This document shows positions 43,768 through 50,986 of a DNA stretch of 52,585 bases, piece after piece. The first letter of the stretch is position 1; each line of letters starts with the position of its first letter. Source of the stretch: Paludibacter sp. (GTDB lineage Bacteria > Bacteroidota > Bacteroidia > Bacteroidales > Paludibacteraceae). The notes beneath the pieces were generated by a model, which was not told the DNA's origin, searched no databases, and saw nothing but the letters and a program-made list of their open reading frames with translations. The stretch spans positions 1 to 52,585 of the forward strand of contig JAQTTH010000026.1 in the NCBI GenBank assembly GCA_028710895.1, written 5' to 3'. Both the position numbers and the translations under genes were made by a program.

Positions 43768-45480
43768 TTATTTTTGAAATGGCTTAATATCTTTGTGGAA
43801 TTGGAGTCCTTCGATGGTGGCATTCACATATCCTTTGCGAACAACAAAATCTCCAAATCGTTCAGCATTGTTTCTATTCGAAGCATAATCGGCTAAAATA
43901 GGACGTAATGCAGCCAGTATTTCTTCTTCCGATAGCAGCTCGGCATACAACTTATTCAATCGGTTTCCGGTGAATCCGGCTCCTAAATACAGATTGTATT
44001 TGCCGGGTGATTTACCAACCAAACCAATCTCACCAAGGTACGGGCGGGCGCAACCATTCGGGCAGCCAGTCATACGTAAGATGATATCTTCTTCTTCGAT
44101 ATGAAGTGCTTTCAGTTCTACTTCAATCTTATCAACCAACGAAGGAAGATAGCGTTCAGCTTCAGCAAAAGCCATTCCGCAGAGTGGAAGTGCCACACAA
44201 GCCAGGCTGTTGCGACGCATGCCACCAAAATGCTTGTTTAGTTTCCATTTCTCAAGCAACTTTTCGATTTTTGCTTTATCGGCTTCTTCTACGTCGGCAA
44301 TTACAAGGTTTTGATTTCCGGTAAGAATGAAGTTCCCTGTATGGTTTTGAGCAATTTCCTGCAGAGCAGTTTTAAGTTGAAGCTTGTGATCATTTTTTAC
44401 TTTTCCACCTTCAACATACAATGTGAAATACCATTTACCATTGAACCCTTTTTCCCATCCGTATTTATCGCCGTTGCTGTCGAAATGGAAGGGTCTTGCT
44501 TCTTCCAACTTGTCGCCTAATGCTGTTCGGATTGCATTTTTGAATATGTTCAGACCCAGACGATCAATTGTATACTTCAATCGGGCATTCTTCCTGTCAG
44601 AGCGGTTTCCGTTGTCGCGTTGCCATATAATTACAGCTTTTGCTGCTTCAACCACATATTCCGGTTTTACAAAACCAATTAAATTACCCAAACGTGGATA
44701 GGTTGTTTCAATTCCAAAAGTCATTCCCATACCGCCTCCGGCAAGGATATTATATCCAAGTAATTTCCCATTTTCGGCAATGGCAATAAAGCCAAGGTCG
44801 TTGGCATAAACATCAACATCGTTGCGTGGAGGAATTGCAATAGCCACTTTAAACTTACGGGGCAAGTAGGTTTTGCCATACAACGGTTCGAAATCTTCTT
44901 TCTTCTCGCCACCGGCAACCAGTTCGTCGCCCACCCAAATTTCATGATAAGCGGTTGTTTGTGGCGATAAATCGGTGTGTAAAGCACGTGCATCGTTATA
45001 AACCTGTTGGTGAACTTCACTTTCCCACGGGTTGGCCGAAGACATGACGTTACGATTCACATCACCACAAGCTGCCAAAGTATCCAACAAAGTTTTGTTG
45101 ATACCGTTGATGGTGGCACGGAGTTTCCGTTTTACAACGCCGTGTAATTCAAATGCCTGACGGGTAGTTAATTTGATTGTTGGGTTTCCGTATATGTCAG
45201 CCAGTTTGTCTATGTCAAGCCATTGTTTGGCTGTTGCAACACCTCCCGGAACACGCACACGAATAAGGAAGCTATAAAGTGGCTCCAGTTTCTGCTTGCG
45301 ACGCTCTTCATCTAAATCGCGATCTTGTTGCTGATACGAACCGTGAAGCTTCATCAACTGCTGATTATCTTCACTCACTCCGGCGGTAATTGGGTTGGCC
45401 AGGTCTTCCACAATATTTCCACGCAGGTAGTTACTTTCTATTTTAATCCGTTCTACTTCGGATAGTTTTATTTCGCTCAT
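43768..45480 (-). CDS. cysI: Assimilatory sulfite reductase, hemoprotein (beta) subunit
   Basis: 570 residues, the length of E. coli CysI. The siroheme-4Fe4S cysteines are present: C428 and C434 (CVALPLC) and C473 and C477 (TGCPNGC). The ferrite-like domain pattern IRVRVPGG and KLTTRQAFELHGV is typical. With CysJ it reduces sulfite to sulfide using NADPH in the cytoplasm. It follows cysJ on the minus strand after a 55-nt spacer containing an inverted repeat, and diverges from the sulfur-carrier operon. Confidence 0.95.
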   Translation of the reverse strand: MSEIKLSEVERIKIESNYLRGNIVEDLANPITAGVSEDNQQLMKLHGSYQQQDRDLDEERRKQKLEPLYSFLIRVRVPGGVATAKQWLDIDKLADIYGNPTIKLTTRQAFELHGVVKRKLRATINGINKTLLDTLAACGDVNRNVMSSANPWESEVHQQVYNDARALHTDLSPQTTAYHEIWVGDELVAGGEKKEDFEPLYGKTYLPRKFKVAIAIPPRNDVDVYANDLGFIAIAENGKLLGYNILAGGGMGMTFGIETTYPRLGNLIGFVKPEYVVEAAKAVIIWQRDNGNRSDRKNARLKYTIDRLGLNIFKNAIRTALGDKLEEARPFHFDSNGDKYGWEKGFNGKWYFTLYVEGGKVKNDHKLQLKTALQEIAQNHTGNFILTGNQNLVIADVEEADKAKIEKLLEKWKLNKHFGGMRRNSLACVALPLCGMAFAEAERYLPSLVDKIEVELKALHIEEEDIILRMTGCPNGCARPYLGEIGLVGKSPGKYNLYLGAGFTGNRLNKLYAELLSEEEILAALRPILADYASNRNNAERFGDFVVRKGYVNATIEGLQFHKDIKPFQK

Positions 45481-45511: not shown

Positions 45512-45536
45512 AATTCATAATGGAGGATTATGAATT
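45512..45536 (-). repeat. 10-bp inverted repeat in the cysJ-cysI spacer
   Basis: AATTCATAAT (45512-45521) and ATTATGAATT (45527-45536) flank GGAGG. The right arm reaches the last base of the cysJ stop codon. It could fold in the mRNA and tune cysI translation; it may simply be one of the AT-rich spacer palindromes seen elsewhere here. Confidence 0.5.
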
Positions 45537-47362
45537 TAATAAACGTCAGTTTGGTAACGACGTTGGTGTTGAAGGCTTAGTACGTATGCTTCAGCGGCTT
45601 CTTTATTCATTCCGCCGTGATCCTGAATTACTTCCAGTAAGGCGTTATTGACATCGTGTGCCATCTTTTTCATATCGCCGCAAACATAAAAATGCGCCCT
45701 TTTTTCCAACCATTCGAAAAGTAATTTACCCTGTTCGCGAATGCGGTCCTGAACATATACTTTTTCCTCAGAATCACGGGAGAAAGCTACATCCAATCGG
45801 GTAAGAGCTCCTTCACGCAACAGTCGTTGCCATTCGAGCTGATATAGAAATTCGCTTTCGGAGTGTCGGTTTCCAAAAATCAACCAGTTTTTTCCTCTTT
45901 TTTCATCAAGTTCCCGATGTTGAATGAATGCACGGTAAGGTGCAATTCCAGTTCCTGCTCCAACCATGATGATAGGTGTTTCAGGATTCTCAGGAAGTCG
46001 GAAGTTCTTGTTTTTCTCAATAAACACAGGCGCAGTTTCGTTTTCTCCTGTTCGGTCTGATAAAAATACTGAACAAAGTCCTGTTTTTTCTCTGTCGCCA
46101 TGTTGGTATTTTACAACTCCCACAGTTAAGTGAACTTCGTCAGGATTAGCCAGCGGGCTTGACGAAATGGAATACAAACGAGGTTGCATTGGACGCAATA
46201 ACGAAATGAACTGTTCTGCGGTTATTTTTTCCGGGAAAAGCGTAAATAAATCGACAACGTCTTTGCCGTAAATAAACTCTTTTACCGTTTCGTGTGAAGC
46301 CAGTATTTGTTTAAGCTTTTCGTTGTCTGTTAGTTTTGCAAGACGGTTTAAAACGTCCGGTGTAATTTGAGTCAACTCGTAGTTTTTGAAAAGCGTGTCA
46401 CGCAACGAGATCGGTTTATTCTCCCATTTTACAATTTCATCGGGCGATAAATTTACTGTTTGCAGCAAATGGTCTACTAATTCGGGTGGGTTAGTGGCAA
46501 AAACTCCCAGAGAATCACCCGGTTCATAAGTTAGACCTGAATTTTCAAGTGACAATTCTACGTGAAGCGTTTGCCGGTTGCTATCGCGTCCATGTAAAAA
46601 GACTTTTTCCAATACCTGTGCCTGAAATGGATTATTTTTCTCAAACTCGCTACCTGATTCCGATTCTTCAACTTCAGAAACTGATTCAACAACTTCGGCA
46701 TCACTTTTCTTATCATTCAATGCGGCTAAGCTATCGGTAATCCATTCCAATGCTTGCGCACGGAAATTTACATCACAATCTACCCGTTGTAAAATACGTT
46801 TTGCACCTAGTTCCTCCAGGCGATTGTCAAATTCAACTCCGGTCTGGCAAAATTTCAAATAAGAGCTATCTCCCAATGCCAATACCGCAAAATTTAATCC
46901 CTCCAGTTTTGGAGCGCGTTTACTATGCAAAAATTCATGGAATGTTTTAGCCTGAAACGGTGGTTCACCTTCGCCATGCGTACTCACAATTACCAACAGG
47001 TTTGTTTCTGACTTTAAGTCGTTGTTTTTGTAGCTTTCCATGCTTTTAAGCTTTGCATCAAAACCCAAAGCCGTTGCATTTTTCAATGCCTGTTTTGCCA
47101 CTCCTTCGCCATTTCCGGTTCTGGAACCGTATAATATTGTGAGTGATTTACTTTTCTCGGCCGGTTTAGATACAGTTGGAGCATTAAACGTAAAAGCTTT
47201 AGCTGGCTTTTCAGCTACGGATCCAACTCTTAATCCCTGAGCCGAAAGTCCTGTAAAATAACCCGAAACCCAATTGATTTGCTCGGGTGAAAGCGAGTTC
47301 GACAGTTCGGTAAGTAAATTCTGTTGTTCCTCTGACAGTGGAATAAAGTTATTTTTAATCAT
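45536..47362 (-). CDS. cysJ: Assimilatory sulfite reductase, flavoprotein (alpha) subunit
   Basis: 608 residues from ATG 47362; the TTG at 47389 lies within the -7 element and is rejected. A flavodoxin domain (about 72-215; LYGSRTGNGEGVAKQ, VSTHGEGEPP, LALGDSSYLKF) binds FMN. A connecting FAD domain follows (PRLYSISSSP) and an NADP-binding domain (MVGAGTGIAPYRAFIQHR, FGNRHSESEFLY, YVCGDMKKMA). A Glu/Ser-rich linker separates the flavodoxin and FAD domains. It passes NADPH electrons to CysI. Confidence 0.95.
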   Translation of the reverse strand: MIKNNFIPLSEEQQNLLTELSNSLSPEQINWVSGYFTGLSAQGLRVGSVAEKPAKAFTFNAPTVSKPAEKSKSLTILYGSRTGNGEGVAKQALKNATALGFDAKLKSMESYKNNDLKSETNLLVIVSTHGEGEPPFQAKTFHEFLHSKRAPKLEGLNFAVLALGDSSYLKFCQTGVEFDNRLEELGAKRILQRVDCDVNFRAQALEWITDSLAALNDKKSDAEVVESVSEVEESESGSEFEKNNPFQAQVLEKVFLHGRDSNRQTLHVELSLENSGLTYEPGDSLGVFATNPPELVDHLLQTVNLSPDEIVKWENKPISLRDTLFKNYELTQITPDVLNRLAKLTDNEKLKQILASHETVKEFIYGKDVVDLFTLFPEKITAEQFISLLRPMQPRLYSISSSPLANPDEVHLTVGVVKYQHGDREKTGLCSVFLSDRTGENETAPVFIEKNKNFRLPENPETPIIMVGAGTGIAPYRAFIQHRELDEKRGKNWLIFGNRHSESEFLYQLEWQRLLREGALTRLDVAFSRDSEEKVYVQDRIREQGKLLFEWLEKRAHFYVCGDMKKMAHDVNNALLEVIQDHGGMNKEAAEAYVLSLQHQRRYQTDVY

Positions 47363-47386: not shown

Positions 47387-47394
47387 CAAAGATA
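47387..47394 (-). promoter_or_regulatory. -7 element of the cysJ promoter
   Basis: The minus strand reads TATCTTTG, a perfect TAnnTTTG, with the predicted start site about 18 nt before the cysJ ATG. No TTG is found at 18-20 nt upstream, which may point to an activator-dependent promoter. Confidence 0.55.
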
Positions 47395-47411
47395 GCTAAT
47401 ACCCAAAGTTT

Positions 47412-47458
47412 GGTAAATACCGCTTTTCATGTAAATTGTATACCACAAACAGGGTATA
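47412..47458. promoter_or_regulatory. Candidate operator in the divergent cysJ / sulfur-carrier region
   Basis: Two symmetric elements lie just upstream of the cysJ promoter: GGTAAATACC (47412-47421) and TATACC-8 nt-GGTATA (47439-47458). Similar half-sites (TAATACC, TGGTATT) flank them. They could be the site of a regulator controlling both arms. No regulator gene is in the window. Confidence 0.3.
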
Positions 47459-47714
47459 AAAATGCCCGATGAATGGTATTTCAGATTTTATTTCGAATCC
47501 TGACCTTTGTATCGTAAAATTCAACACATTAAAATCAGTTGAAAGGCACTTAAACCTGAATCTCTGAGTTCGCGGGCTTCGAGCAGCAAAACAAGCAACA
47601 TGTTATAATTGTTGAGTCGTTCGATTAATTTAATCGGAAATTGCAATTGTCCTTGGCTATAAAAAATTGATTAGCGGAAAACTAAAAGATACAAACAAGA
47701 TAAATTCTAACAAA
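47459..47714 (+). other. Leader region of the sulfur-carrier operon
   Basis: About 255 nt without a gene. I see no clean TAnnTTTG promoter; GACCTTTG near 47505-47512 is the closest. The stretch contains small inverted repeats (for example CGATTA/TAATCG and CAAC/GTTG pairs near 47600-47640). A sulfur- or amino-acid-sensing leader is possible, but I cannot match it to a known riboswitch. Confidence 0.3.
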
Positions 47715-47927
47715 ATGAGTAAAATTTCGGTAAACGGTAAAGCACAGGAGGTAGAAAGACCTATCTCAATTACAGAATTAATTAAATTAAATAATGTGGC
47801 TCAGCCGGAAATGGTTTCAATCCAGCTAAACGGTCAGTTTGTAAACCGCGATGATTTCGACAACACACAAGTTGCAGAAGGTGACGAATTGGATTTTCTT
47901 TATTTTATGGGTGGAGGCTCTTTTTAA
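47715..47927 (+). CDS. ThiS-like sulfur-carrier protein with C-terminal GGGSF tail
   Basis: 70 residues from ATG 47715; an upstream TTG would add 16 unlikely residues. It has the ubiquitin-like ThiS/MoaD fold pattern: SVNGKAQEV, ISITELI, MVSIQLNGQFV, EGDELDFLYFMGGG. The carrier glycines are not terminal: Ser69 and Phe70 follow G66-G68. Such a tail must be removed before the E1 can adenylate the glycine, and the JAMM protease gene four genes downstream could do this. Thiamine enzymes (ThiG, ThiC) are absent here, so a role in thiamine synthesis is unlikely. Confidence 0.87.
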   Translation: MSKISVNGKAQEVERPISITELIKLNNVAQPEMVSIQLNGQFVNRDDFDNTQVAEGDELDFLYFMGGGSF

Positions 47928-47947
47928 TTGACCATTTGAAAATTGAC

Positions 47948-48001
47948 CATTTACTATTTAGAGTTAGTAATGGTAAATAGTAAATGACTAAATAGTAAAT
48001 G
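47948..48001 (+). repeat. Inverted and direct TAAATAGTAAATG repeats before the E1 gene
   Basis: TAAATAGTAAATG occurs at 47974-47986 and again at 47989-48001, and its reverse complement at 47948-47960. Either direct copy can pair with the inverted one, so two alternative 13-bp hairpins are possible; the second ends 5 nt before the start codon of the E1 gene. It could tune translation of the downstream genes relative to the carrier. Confidence 0.6.
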
Positions 48002-48006
48002 AAATA

Positions 48007-48831
48007 ATGGATTTTACAGAAGAACAAATACAAAGATATAGTCGACACATACTACTGCAAGATGTAGGAGTGGAAGGGCAAGAAAAAATAAATAACGGCA
48101 AAGTGCTGATAGTTGGTGCCGGTGGACTTGGTGCGCCAATTGCCTTGTATCTGGCAGCAGCCGGTGTAGGAACGATTGGAATTATTGATGGTGATGTAGT
48201 TGATTTAAGCAATCTGCAACGTCAGGTTATTCACTTTACTCCGGATGTAAACAAACCCAAAGTAATTTCGGCAAAGGAGAAAATCAACCTGATTAATCCG
48301 GATGTAAAAGTGATTGCGTATCAGAAATTACTGACAGCTGAAAATGCATTGGAAATCATACAGGACTATGATTTTGTAGTTGACGGAACAGATAATTTCC
48401 CCGTAAAGTTCCTGATAAACGATGCCTGCGTTATTGCCAAAAAACCATTTTCGCACGGTGGAATTCTTCGCTTCGATGGACAAACACTTACTTACAAACC
48501 CGGAACAGCTTGTTATCGCTGTTTGTTCCACTCACCACCACCGCCAAATGCAGTACCAACCTGTTCGCAGGCAGGAGTTTTGGGAGCTATTGCCGGTATG
48601 TTGGGCACTATTCAGGCTGCAGAAGTATTGAAATATCTGACCGGAGTTGGCGACTTGCTGACCAACCGTTTGCTGACATTCAATGCCAAAACAATGGAAT
48701 TCAGAACTATCAAATCAAAACCAAACGATAATTGCCCGGTTTGTGGTAGTCACCCAACTGTAACAGGTTTAGTTGATTACGAACAAGCGGTTTGCGATAT
48801 CGAAAGTCATAGAAAGAATAAAAACAAATAA
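48007..48831 (+). CDS. E1-like adenylyltransferase/sulfurtransferase (ThiF/MoeB family, no rhodanese domain)
   Basis: 274 residues. Motifs: N-terminal RYSRHILL, GAGGLGAP (ATP loop, 37-44), DGDVVDLSNLQRQ (61-73), DGTDNFPVK (127-134), zinc cysteines C169/C172 and C243/C246, and Cys186 in PTCSQAG, at the position where ThiF-type enzymes form the acyl-persulfide. It would adenylate the C-terminal glycine of the upstream carrier. The C-terminal rhodanese domain of MoeZ/MOCS3 is missing, so sulfur must come from elsewhere: free sulfide or the TusA/DsrE proteins. It is 2 nt from the next gene. Confidence 0.88.
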   Translation: MDFTEEQIQRYSRHILLQDVGVEGQEKINNGKVLIVGAGGLGAPIALYLAAAGVGTIGIIDGDVVDLSNLQRQVIHFTPDVNKPKVISAKEKINLINPDVKVIAYQKLLTAENALEIIQDYDFVVDGTDNFPVKFLINDACVIAKKPFSHGGILRFDGQTLTYKPGTACYRCLFHSPPPPNAVPTCSQAGVLGAIAGMLGTIQAAEVLKYLTGVGDLLTNRLLTFNAKTMEFRTIKSKPNDNCPVCGSHPTVTGLVDYEQAVCDIESHRKNKNK

Positions 48832-48833
48832 TC

Positions 48834-49337
48834 ATGGCAACAACAGAAATTAAACTCGATCCGAATACAAAAAAACTTTCTTTGATTGGCTTCAGCGGCG
48901 ATTTCGACAAGCTGGTAGCAGTATTCACATTGGCCACCGGCGCTGCTGCCGTTGGTTACGAAGTAAACTTGTTCTTCACCTTTTGGGGATTGGACGGTAT
49001 AAAAATCAAACAAGGTCGTAGTCCGGTTGGTAAAGGATTTTTACCGAAAGTATTCGGTGTATTTATGGGCGGCCTGAAAAGTGCTCCCGTAAGTCGGTTG
49101 AACTTTGGCGGTATTAGTCCGAAGATTTTCCGCTATTTAATGCGCAAAAACAACGTGGCAACGCTCGAAGAACTGGTAGAAGCTGCCAAAGTGTTAGGTG
49201 TAAACTTCTACGCCTGCGAAATGGCGATGCATATTCTGGGCATTCAAAAATCGGATTTAATTCCCGAAGTAAAAGATGTGCTTGGAGTGGCTACCTTCCT
49301 GAAAATCGCCGACGGAGGTCAAACACTTTTTATTTAA
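48834..49337 (+). CDS. DsrE-family (DsrE2-like) sulfur-relay protein
   Basis: 167 residues. The fold pattern is LSLIGFSGDFDKLVAVFTLATGAAA, with the conserved Cys128 in NFYACEMAMHILGI, which aligns with the active Cys of DsrE2-type proteins. In sulfur-oxidising bacteria DsrE2 and TusA are co-encoded and exchange persulfide sulfur. Here it is flanked by an E1 and a TusA gene, so it likely hands sulfur to, or buffers sulfur for, the carrier-protein pathway. It is not fused to a membrane segment. Confidence 0.82.
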   Translation: MATTEIKLDPNTKKLSLIGFSGDFDKLVAVFTLATGAAAVGYEVNLFFTFWGLDGIKIKQGRSPVGKGFLPKVFGVFMGGLKSAPVSRLNFGGISPKIFRYLMRKNNVATLEELVEAAKVLGVNFYACEMAMHILGIQKSDLIPEVKDVLGVATFLKIADGGQTLFI

Positions 49338-49370
49338 TGCATAATTCACAATTTATAATTCAGAACTAAG

Positions 49371-49598
49371 ATGGCAAACTATAATTTAGATATTACAAAA
49401 GAGCATTGTCCAATGACTTTTGTAAAGACAAAAATCGAACTTTCGAAACTGAAATCGGGCGATACGCTTGAAGTACTTCTTACCGAAGGAGAGCCACTGG
49501 AAAACGTGCCAAGAAGTTCAACCGAACAGGGATTTACAGTGCTTTCGATCACCGAAGCCGAAGTAAAAGGTACCCATAAAGTTTTGATTCAGAAATGA
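49371..49598 (+). CDS. TusA-family sulfur-transfer protein
   Basis: 75 residues. Cys13 lies in the motif HCPMTFVKTK, matching the TusA/SirA CPxxxxK signature, followed by KLKSGDTLEVLLTEGEPLENVPR as in the family. TusA carries a persulfide on this Cys and passes it to an acceptor. It ends with a 4-nt overlap (ATGA) into the JAMM gene, indicating translational coupling and joint function. Confidence 0.87.
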   Translation: MANYNLDITKEHCPMTFVKTKIELSKLKSGDTLEVLLTEGEPLENVPRSSTEQGFTVLSITEAEVKGTHKVLIQK

Positions 49599-49990
49599 TA
49601 CGCATACCAACAGCTATTTATGACGGTATAGTGGGACAGGCTTATGCCGAACTGCCAAACGAAGCTTGCGGGTTATTGGTGGGTACAGCGGGTGAGGTTG
49701 TAAAGCAACATGCTCTGACGAATATCGACCACAGTCCCGAGCATTTTTCGTTTGATCCGGCCGAACAATTTCAGGTGTTTCGCTCGGCACGTACCGAAGG
49801 ATTGGAAATCATTGCCAACTATCACAGTCACCCCGAAACGCCTTCGCGTCCATCAGTAGAAGATATCCGTTTGGCTTTTGATCCGAATATCTTGTACCTG
49901 ATTGTATCCCTGGCAGAAGAAATTCCGGTTTTAAAAGCTTTTGATATTCAGAATGGAGTCAGCACAGAAGTGCCGATTGAAGTGTTTTAG
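49595..49990 (+). CDS. JAMM/MPN+ metalloprotease (Mov34/Mec/QbsD-like)
   Basis: 131 residues. The full JAMM motif is present: Glu23, then H77-S-H79-P, seven residues, S87, two residues, D90 (YHSHPETPSRPSVED). These zinc peptidases trim or hydrolyse ThiS-like carriers: QbsD and HcyD remove residues after the di-glycine, and Mycobacterium Mec releases cysteine from the CysO-cysteine adduct. Either role fits the carrier ending GGGSF. It starts inside the tusA stop codon; no signal peptide. Confidence 0.9.
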   Translation: MIRIPTAIYDGIVGQAYAELPNEACGLLVGTAGEVVKQHALTNIDHSPEHFSFDPAEQFQVFRSARTEGLEIIANYHSHPETPSRPSVEDIRLAFDPNILYLIVSLAEEIPVLKAFDIQNGVSTEVPIEVF

Positions 49991-50044
49991 AAGATACAAC
50001 ATGCTATTTTCTAACCTATTATTGCATTAATTGAGATAACTGTC

Positions 50045-50073
50045 TTGTAACTCGTAACTAAATCCTTGTAACT
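50045..50073 (+). repeat. Direct TTGTAACT repeat before cysE
   Basis: TTGTAACT occurs at 50045-50052 and 50066-50073, with a partial copy (CGTAACT) between. It is 4 nt from the cysE start codon. It is probably a minor spacer repeat, or a site for the operon's regulator. Confidence 0.4.
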
Positions 50074-50077
50074 AACG

Positions 50078-50986
50078 ATGAAGCCTACAATAATCAATGT
50101 TATTCAAAAAAATATATCGTTATTAATTAGCGATTCCGTTGAGGAGTATCAATACATTCCATTGCATGACAAGCCACTGCCTTCGTTGCAAAAATTGTCT
50201 GAGATTGTTGATCTTTTTCGTAGTGTTATTTTTCCGGGTTATTTCGGAGATACAGTTAGTGATACCGATACGTTGAGTTTTCACCTGGGAGTAAATCTTG
50301 AGCGACTCTATTTATTGCTGAAAGATCAGGTGAAAAATGGTTTGTGTTTTGAAGCTACCGAAGATCAATGCATTGAATCGGAAAAACTGGCACCGGAAAT
50401 TGCCAAGGCGTTGATAAATAAATTGCCGGAACTTAAACGAATAGTTGCGACCGATATAAAAGCTACTTTCGATAGTGATCCGGCTGCTAAAAGTTATGGA
50501 GAAGTCATCTTTTCCTATCCAACCATTCGGGCAGTATTTAATTACCGCATTGCACATGAATTGTTGAAACTGGGCGTGCCGATTATACCCCGTGTGATAA
50601 CAGAGTTGGCCCATTCAGAGACCGGAATTGATATCCATCCGGCAGCCAAAATTGGTGAGTATTTCAGTATCGATCACGGAACCGGTGTTGTTATTGGTGA
50701 AACAAGTGTCATTGGCAATCGCGTGAAACTTTATCAGGGAGTTACATTGGGAGCAAAAAGTTTTACACTTGACGAAAACGGCAAACCCAAAAACATACCG
50801 CGTCATCCAATTTTGGAAGACAACGTGGTGGTTTATGCCAATACGAGTATTCTTGGGCGAATCACCATTGGACATGACTCAACGATTGGTGGAAACGTTT
50901 GGCTGACAAACAGTGTTCCACCCGAATCAAAAATCCTGCAATCGAAAGCCACCATTACTGCATTTCATGATGGACTTGGGATTTGA
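50078..50986 (+). CDS. cysE: Serine O-acetyltransferase
   Basis: 302 residues. A helical N-terminal half is followed by a left-handed beta-helix of hexapeptide repeats (about 185-290; IHPAAKIGEYFSIDHGTGVVIGETSVIG, NRVKLYQGVTLGA, with His in IDHGTG). It makes O-acetylserine from serine and acetyl-CoA, the acceptor of sulfide in cysteine synthesis. It is 87 nt after the JAMM gene on the same strand, so cysteine is the likely end product of this operon. No cysK or cysM is within the window. Confidence 0.93.
   Translation: MKPTIINVIQKNISLLISDSVEEYQYIPLHDKPLPSLQKLSEIVDLFRSVIFPGYFGDTVSDTDTLSFHLGVNLERLYLLLKDQVKNGLCFEATEDQCIESEKLAPEIAKALINKLPELKRIVATDIKATFDSDPAAKSYGEVIFSYPTIRAVFNYRIAHELLKLGVPIIPRVITELAHSETGIDIHPAAKIGEYFSIDHGTGVVIGETSVIGNRVKLYQGVTLGAKSFTLDENGKPKNIPRHPILEDNVVVYANTSILGRITIGHDSTIGGNVWLTNSVPPESKILQSKATITAFHDGLGI

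Follow-up and report, generated by a model that had tools for sequence, protein, structure and literature searches.

A tailed sulfur carrier with E1, DsrE, TusA and JAMM partners in a Paludibacter operon likely directed to cysteine synthesis

The window analyzed in this study is the whole 52,585-nucleotide contig JAQTTH010000026.1 (C6) of a Paludibacter sp. genome (G000), which comprises 4.9 Mb in 41 contigs and is 99.95% complete. It contains an operon of six co-directional genes in the order carrier-E1-DsrE-TusA-JAMM-CysE, divergent from the sulfite reductase genes cysJ and cysI. We consider it likely that this operon makes cysteine by a protein-thiocarboxylate route with a DsrE-TusA sulfur relay; the chemistry of the route we infer from the CysO and HcyS systems. 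The operon has the following features:

47715..47927, plus strand: ThiS-like sulfur carrier of 70 aa with the C-terminus FMGGGSF followed by the stop codon (PF02597, TIGR01683)
47919..47924, plus strand: codons of the Ser-Phe tail after GGG, whose removal by the JAMM peptidase is expected from the sequence
48007..48831, plus strand: E1-like adenylyltransferase of 274 aa without rhodanese domain (PF00899, ThiF/MoeB, alone)
48834..49337, plus strand: DsrE2-type protein (PF13686, DrsE_2)
49371..49598, plus strand: TusA sulfurtransferase (PF01206)
49595..49990, plus strand: JAMM/JAB metallopeptidase with complete motif (PF14464, Prok-JAB)
50078..50986, plus strand: serine acetyltransferase of the CysE/EpsC type (NF041874 above cut-off, TIGR01172 below cut-off)

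The six open reading frames (ORFs) and their family assignments in the first-pass annotation of this contig were borne out by an ORF check and by Pfam and NCBIfam models. The same applies to its report of a carrier ending in GGGSF and a complete JAMM peptidase in one operon, which agrees with the sequence and with motif conservation. The tight spacing it described holds for E1-DsrE (2-nt gap) and TusA-JAMM (4-nt overlap) but not uniformly, as carrier and E1 are 79 nt apart, DsrE and TusA 33 nt, and JAMM and CysE 87 nt. Short A+T-rich words, judged by eye, are repeated in the spacers 47928-48006 and 49338-49370. The nearest solved chain to the window JAMM is 2kks.

A query with the JAMM protein on genome contigs yielded 79 loci in 73 assemblies. 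Their neighborhoods were annotated with profiles from clustered ORFs, and representatives of the larger clusters were identified by Pfam and NCBIfam. The order carrier-E1-DsrE-TusA-JAMM is found in 47 of the 79 loci, a recurrence that exceeds chance; 18 of the remaining 32 show no carrier, 13 of these having less than 3 kb of contig upstream. Three layouts can be distinguished. In the first, cysK-carrier-E1-DsrE-TusA-JAMM, an encapsulin and a cysteine desulfurase often come next; the second is carrier-metY-E1-DsrE-TusA-JAMM; and the third, carrier-E1-JAMM, has no DsrE and is often preceded by a sulfite reductase (SIR). Among the 58 loci whose sequence extends at least 3.5 kb upstream of JAMM, the same strand carries the carrier in 53, E1 in 55, DsrE in 46, TusA in 47, cysK in 31, metY in 14 and a SIR match in 10. 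Fifty loci are covered on both sides: cysK lies at most 400 bp from the carrier in 26 of them, metY at most 400 bp from E1 in 10, and none has both. These linkages support the earlier proposal that a tailed carrier with its own E1 and JAMM serves sulfur assimilation, most likely to cysteine. The operon cysK of the relatives (L132) passes the cysK model and fails the cysM model, and the operon cysK is nearest to the solved chain 2q3b, cysteine synthase A. As to the neighborhood survey of the six genes with cysJI suggested in the first-pass annotation, the five-gene order recurs; no NADPH-type cysJI was detected next to any of the 79 relative loci, and another SIR is present at 13 of them.

Eleven full-length SIRs were examined, and nine, including one of the window genome, contain a fused TusA domain. 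The latter SIR is located on contig C37 (L161:14266-16590), is 774 residues long and NirA-like, scores below the model cut-offs, and has a TusA domain as its last 69 residues. Such fusions suggest that sulfur could pass from the siroheme site to TusA, and the many SIRs with fused TusA may account for missing TusA genes. The associations of DsrE with encapsulin and of DsrE absence with SIR (Fisher p 6.7e-5 and 6.6e-4, 50 loci) are not claimed here, since the E1 tree gives only four and five independent pairs on supported branches, neither near significance. Some assemblies contain two carrier operons (L123/L131, L129/L136 and L092/L097), and L131 has an encapsulin while L123 has none. A cluster of TonB receptor, FecR and ECF sigma genes on the opposite strand adjoins the operon, which is mostly a metY-type one, in L098, L101, L104, L105, L109, L110, L112 and L114 (next to JAMM), and also in L092 and L058.

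The catalytic residues were assessed in alignments (80 rows for JAMM) with a conservation threshold of at least 95% and presence in the window copy. On this basis, JAMM contains E23, H77-x-H79, S87 and D90, and E1 contains R13, K85, D129 and C186 in addition to C169, C172, C243 and C246, which we take to be zinc cysteines, all residue roles being assigned from general family knowledge. DsrE has one conserved cysteine, C128, and TusA has C13 within HCPMTFV.

The carrier tail was followed in 63 carriers of other loci in the range L054-L140 (L054, L055 and 61 of the 79 JAMM loci). All 63 contain the motif [DE]FL[YF]FMGGG plus a tail, which is 1 to 40 residues long after GGG and measures two residues in 30 carriers. 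Its first residue is S in 24, Q in 11, A in 11, C in eight, R in six, and G, K and N in one each. Since the tails vary and the motif does not, the carriers would suit a peptidase that needs Gly-X alone. Among the best 120 of 604 carrier homologues in the protein database, the window's own included, 118 have a tail (117 by motif and P0075 by eye). Long tails such as NSYQLTVIS recur (P0075; L065) and may be read-through into repeated intergenic sequence. Some tails start with Cys and resemble a carrier-cysteine product. In Mycobacterium, the protease Mec+ cleaves the CysO-cysteine adduct, according to the passages compared (PMC3227635), and a single JAMM may therefore both trim the carrier precursor and release the product.

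The route would begin with removal of the Ser-Phe tail by JAMM, exposing Gly68, which E1 and ATP would then adenylate. A persulfide would reach the activated carrier via Cys128 of DsrE and Cys13 of TusA, instead of via a rhodanese, and a CysK-type synthase would use the resulting carrier thiocarboxylate on O-acetylserine supplied by CysE. A further task of JAMM may be to cleave the carrier-cysteine adduct, by analogy with Mec+ of Mycobacterium. In the window setting, cysJI would share its operator region with the carrier operon. As to the relay, transfer of a sulfur group from a DsrE protein to TusA is described in dissimilatory sulfur oxidation, but that protein is DsrE3A in the part of the source considered (PMC4175335), while the window protein is of the DsrE2 type.

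The divergent genes and the region between them are organized as follows:

43768..45480, minus strand: cysI, NADPH sulfite reductase hemoprotein (TIGR02041 above cut-off)
45536..47359, minus strand: cysJ, sulfite reductase flavoprotein (TIGR01931 above cut-off; ATG start at 47359, TTG start at 47389 possible)
47399..47416, no strand: palindrome copy 1 from the motif scan, one mismatch to ATACC-N8-GGTAT
47440..47457, no strand: palindrome copy 2 from the motif scan, exact ATACC-N8-GGTAT, candidate operator between cysJ and the carrier operon
47440..47484, plus strand: stretch 93% identical, by sequence comparison, to the leader before cysK in Paludibacter propionicigenes WB4 (L051); no cysK follows in the window
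47462..47479, no strand: palindrome copy 3 from the motif scan, one mismatch
47502..47509, plus strand: GACCTTTG, resembling the Bacteroidota -7 box

The divergence from sulfite reductase reported earlier holds, both cysJ and cysI on the opposite strand passing the NCBI cut-offs. With at most one mismatch, the palindrome occurs five times in the window, three times between cysJ and the carrier, with starts 41 and 22 bp apart. Shuffled windows give a mean of 0.86 matches, and none of 100 shuffles reaches five. In 1,260,838 bases of 88 loci, ATACC-N(7-9)-GGTAT has 42 matches (34 with spacing 8), compared with 2, 0, 0, 1 and 1 in five first-order simulations. Thirty-two of the 42 precede a cysK, carrier, SIR, metY, PstS-like, ABC, DsrE or encapsulin gene by at most 600 bp or fall just within its open frame; two lie beside LuxR-type genes and eight have no profiled gene behind them. 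The palindrome is near the operon start in 13 of 55 loci and hence not universal. The window genome contains a further exact copy on contig C37, 67 bp before a CysG-type frame that was recognized by a custom profile only (NCBIfam models gave nothing at 1e-30). After this frame come a gap of some 600 bp and then, on the same strand, a uroporphyrinogen-III methyltransferase gene, cysD, cysN and cysH. The palindrome offers a handle on the Bacteroidales sulfur regulon. The Bacteroidota -7 box has the motif TAnnTTTG, and a DNA operator near the -7-like box appears likelier than an RNA element. The sole Rfam match in the promoter region was at chance level (E 0.53).

In some close relatives the operon also includes cysK, an encapsulin of family 2B and a cysteine desulfurase, an extension not visible from the window alone. 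On the E1 tree, the window falls into a supported group of eight with L051, L062, L063, L064, L065, L066 and L067. Three of the seven near loci (L062, L063 and L051) have the order cysK-carrier-E1-DsrE-TusA-JAMM-cysE-encapsulin(2B)-cysteine desulfurase, and in L067 cysK is present and the contig ends within cysE. The window E1 shares 98% identity with the E1 of L063, a locus with both cysK and shell, and identities to the complete operons at L051, L062 and L047 amount to 96-98% for E1, 93-98% for DsrE and 89-97% for TusA. The window seems to be a reduced form of the cysK-to-encapsulin operon. It is simpler to assume that cysK was lost here and its promoter retained than that cysK was inserted in the other loci, because cysK occupies that place in many relatives; tblastn revealed no cysK remnant in the window. 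The fewest changes on the E1 tree, which give no direction, number seven for the shell, ten for cysK, six for DsrE and four for metY in the operon.

Of the 69 loci that extend at least 2 kb downstream of JAMM, 32 have a shell gene on that side, 27 of these within 260 bp between open frames. In total, 33 of the 79 loci have a shell, and 31 of these 33 also have a desulfurase. A representative shell passes the family 2B encapsulin model, and the shell of L062 matches the solved shells 9bje, 9bhu and 6x8m. In the L062 desulfurase, the match to SufS-type chains starts only around residue 147, which leaves an N-terminal extension of the kind that encapsulin cargo proteins carry, according to the passages compared (PMC8346489). 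Among 393 genomes of the order, nine have the shell (E 1e-20), 16 have JAMM (E 1e-15) and eight have both, with 0.37 expected (Fisher 9e-12, uncorrected for kinship). Both genes are same-strand neighbors at most 1.1 kb apart in six of the eight, 19 kb apart in G381 and on different contigs in G428; G555, which is 65% complete, has the shell alone without a JAMM match. Within the genus, the shell is present in two of 24 genomes. A protein query did not find the family 2B shell in the window genome, while the positive controls G311 and G314 matched.

In these relatives, the operon is perhaps a withdrawal route from stored sulfur. As a tentative extension, which we think possible though less probable than the cysteine route itself, the relatives would keep a sulfur bank. 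An encapsulated desulfurase would deposit the sulfur of surplus cysteine in the cNMP-domain shell, and from there it would go back into cysteine as protein thiocarboxylate by way of DsrE, TusA, E1, tailed carrier, JAMM, CysK and CysE, with no free sulfide involved. A single operator (ATACC-N8-GGTAT) would run both the bank and sulfate assimilation, and the window lineage would have lost the bank and put cysJI under the same operator. In the literature passages compared, the exit of sulfur from encapsulin desulfurases and the role of Bacteroidota thiocarboxylate carriers are not answered. The compact operon joining carrier and encapsulin in a cultured type strain, P. propionicigenes WB4, makes the question testable.

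Several observations weigh against the cysteine route in the window organism. We infer the acceptor synthase there, because the window operon has no cysteine synthase and the CysK of the genome, whose gene lies next to metY on a different contig, has only 64-66% identity with the operon CysKs of L062, L063, L067 and L051. This CysK is closer (71%) to one CysK in L090 and one in L095. CysE and CysK can also work on free CysJI sulfide without a carrier. Within the group of eight, L064, L065 and L066 (the last with only 1.1 kb of sequence downstream) lack cysK, L064 and L065 also lack the shell, and L065 lacks DsrE and TusA. Two of the best 120 of the 604 carrier homologues, P0017 and P0083, stop at GGG, the completeness of both being uncertain. 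Finally, JAMM is present in eight of the 24 genomes of the genus, the window genome included, and the route is probably dispensable because the other 16, several of them incomplete, show no JAMM match. The genome encodes four PALP proteins, of which one passes the cysK model (and fails the cysM model); the others resemble, by eye, two TrpB-type proteins and a threonine synthase.

Alternatively, the carrier could feed homocysteine, and thus methionine, synthesis via MetY, as is reported for Wolinella, alone or besides cysteine. The ten loci with metY between carrier and E1 point in this direction, as do L089, outside the 50 fully covered loci, which joins cysK and metY in one operon, and contig C25 of the window genome, where metY directly follows cysK and passes the O-acetylhomoserine/O-acetylserine sulfhydrylase model. 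However, CysE is part of the window operon and of L062, L063, L051 and L067, where cysK heads the operon. In addition, the C25 MetY is 33-40% identical to the MetYs between carrier and E1, its best match (73%) being a metY further downstream in L090. We therefore regard this alternative as unlikely for the window. It is more doubtful still that the gene set is a drifting remnant without cysK and encapsulin, cysteine being made from free sulfide. Such a remnant would agree with the lack of cysK beside the carrier and of encapsulin in a genome that kept cysJI, cysDNH and cysK, but the conserved catalytic residues are intact, the palindromes are kept, and E1, DsrE and TusA have the high identities to full operons given above. 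Ubiquitin-like conjugation, in which E1 attaches the carrier to proteins and JAMM removes it, is slightly less probable again. E1 (322 bits) and JAMM (69 bits) do match the archaeal SAMP E1 and desampylase models, both below cut-off, but none of the six operon proteins gives an E2-like match, the operon is frequently linked to cysK, metY, sulfite reductase and siroheme genes, and its palindrome is common to sulfur genes. A role in thiamine or molybdopterin biosynthesis can practically be dismissed, even though curated models call the carrier ThiS and E1 MoeB: ThiG was not found in the window genome but matched in 14 of 14 control genomes, which rules out the thiamine role; the sole other ThiS/MoaD match of the genome is a separate MoaD in the molybdopterin cluster, ending in FSGG without tail, on which the molybdopterin role was rejected; and no thiamine or molybdopterin genes, a linkage the first-pass annotation had named as a possible refutation, are among the identified recurrent neighbors of the relatives, those families not having been searched for as such. 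Without ThiG, the window organism is probably a thiazole auxotroph. Databases still list the WB4 carrier as thiamine biosynthesis protein ThiS, a label that can lead pathway predictions astray.

The cysteine route has counterparts among described systems. The HcyS/HcyD/HcyF system with MetY of Wolinella reportedly combines E1, JAMM and a tailed carrier in a homocysteine pathway; the metY-type operons of the relatives look like this system, whereas the window operon has no metY but has CysE and DsrE. QbsE/QbsD is said to combine carrier, E1 and JAB for a siderophore thiocarboxylate, with a rhodanese domain on its E1; the window shares the three components but its E1 lacks the rhodanese domain. 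The quinolobactin class is row 4a of the operon classes in the passages compared of Iyer, Burroughs and Aravind 2006 (PMC1779556). That work predicted an operon class 4e, which always contains SirA/TusA. Judged by its genes, the window operon fits this class, with DsrE added and an encapsulin module in some relatives. As in class 4e, a ThiS/MoaD-like protein, JAB, E1 without rhodanese and SirA/TusA are all present; class 4e is linked to sulfite reductase, PAPS reductase, ATP sulfurylase and O-acetylhomoserine sulfhydrylase, and the window operon to the divergent cysJI. DsrE is not named in the main text of PMC1779556, and CysE, encapsulin and desulfurase are not in its row 4e. The first-pass annotation had taken both DsrE and TusA as additions to described systems, which stands for DsrE, whereas TusA is standard in class 4e.

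The CysO/CysM/Mec+ system of Mycobacterium combines a carrier thiocarboxylate, a cysteine-freeing protease and a cysteine synthase in the passages compared (PMC3227635), as the route proposed for the window would. There, MoeZ has a rhodanese domain, which the window E1 lacks, and CysM uses O-phosphoserine, while the window operon has no CysM and the synthases of the relatives and of its own genome are of the CysK type by model. TusA and DsrE further set the window apart from the CysO system, as do the relatives' CysK genes, often with CysE. With the described family 2B desulfurase encapsulins (PMC8346489, PMC8049743, PMC12407261), the relatives share, as far as the passages compared go, the cNMP-domain shell with SrpI-like fold, the N-terminally extended desulfurase and the CysE neighbor. 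The block carrier-E1-DsrE-TusA-JAMM-cysK was not found in the compared passages of these three papers, and the main text of PMC8346489 does not mention ThiF, ubiquitin, TusA, DsrE, MoaD or a sulfur carrier. A search of the open-access literature, whose coverage leaves out most subscription journals, gave no text joining encapsulin with TusA, encapsulin with a sulfur carrier, or DsrE with thiocarboxylate.

Two further gene pairs were observed. A 464-aa ThiF-domain protein followed by a 170-aa JAB protein (L004, G000:C25:39557-42856) is unlike the window pair and recalls bacterial ubiquitin-like or defense operons. In L160 (3322-6278, minus strand), adjacent ORFs of 442 and 546 aa are reverse transcriptase-like by eye (YVDD) and possibly form a defense pair.

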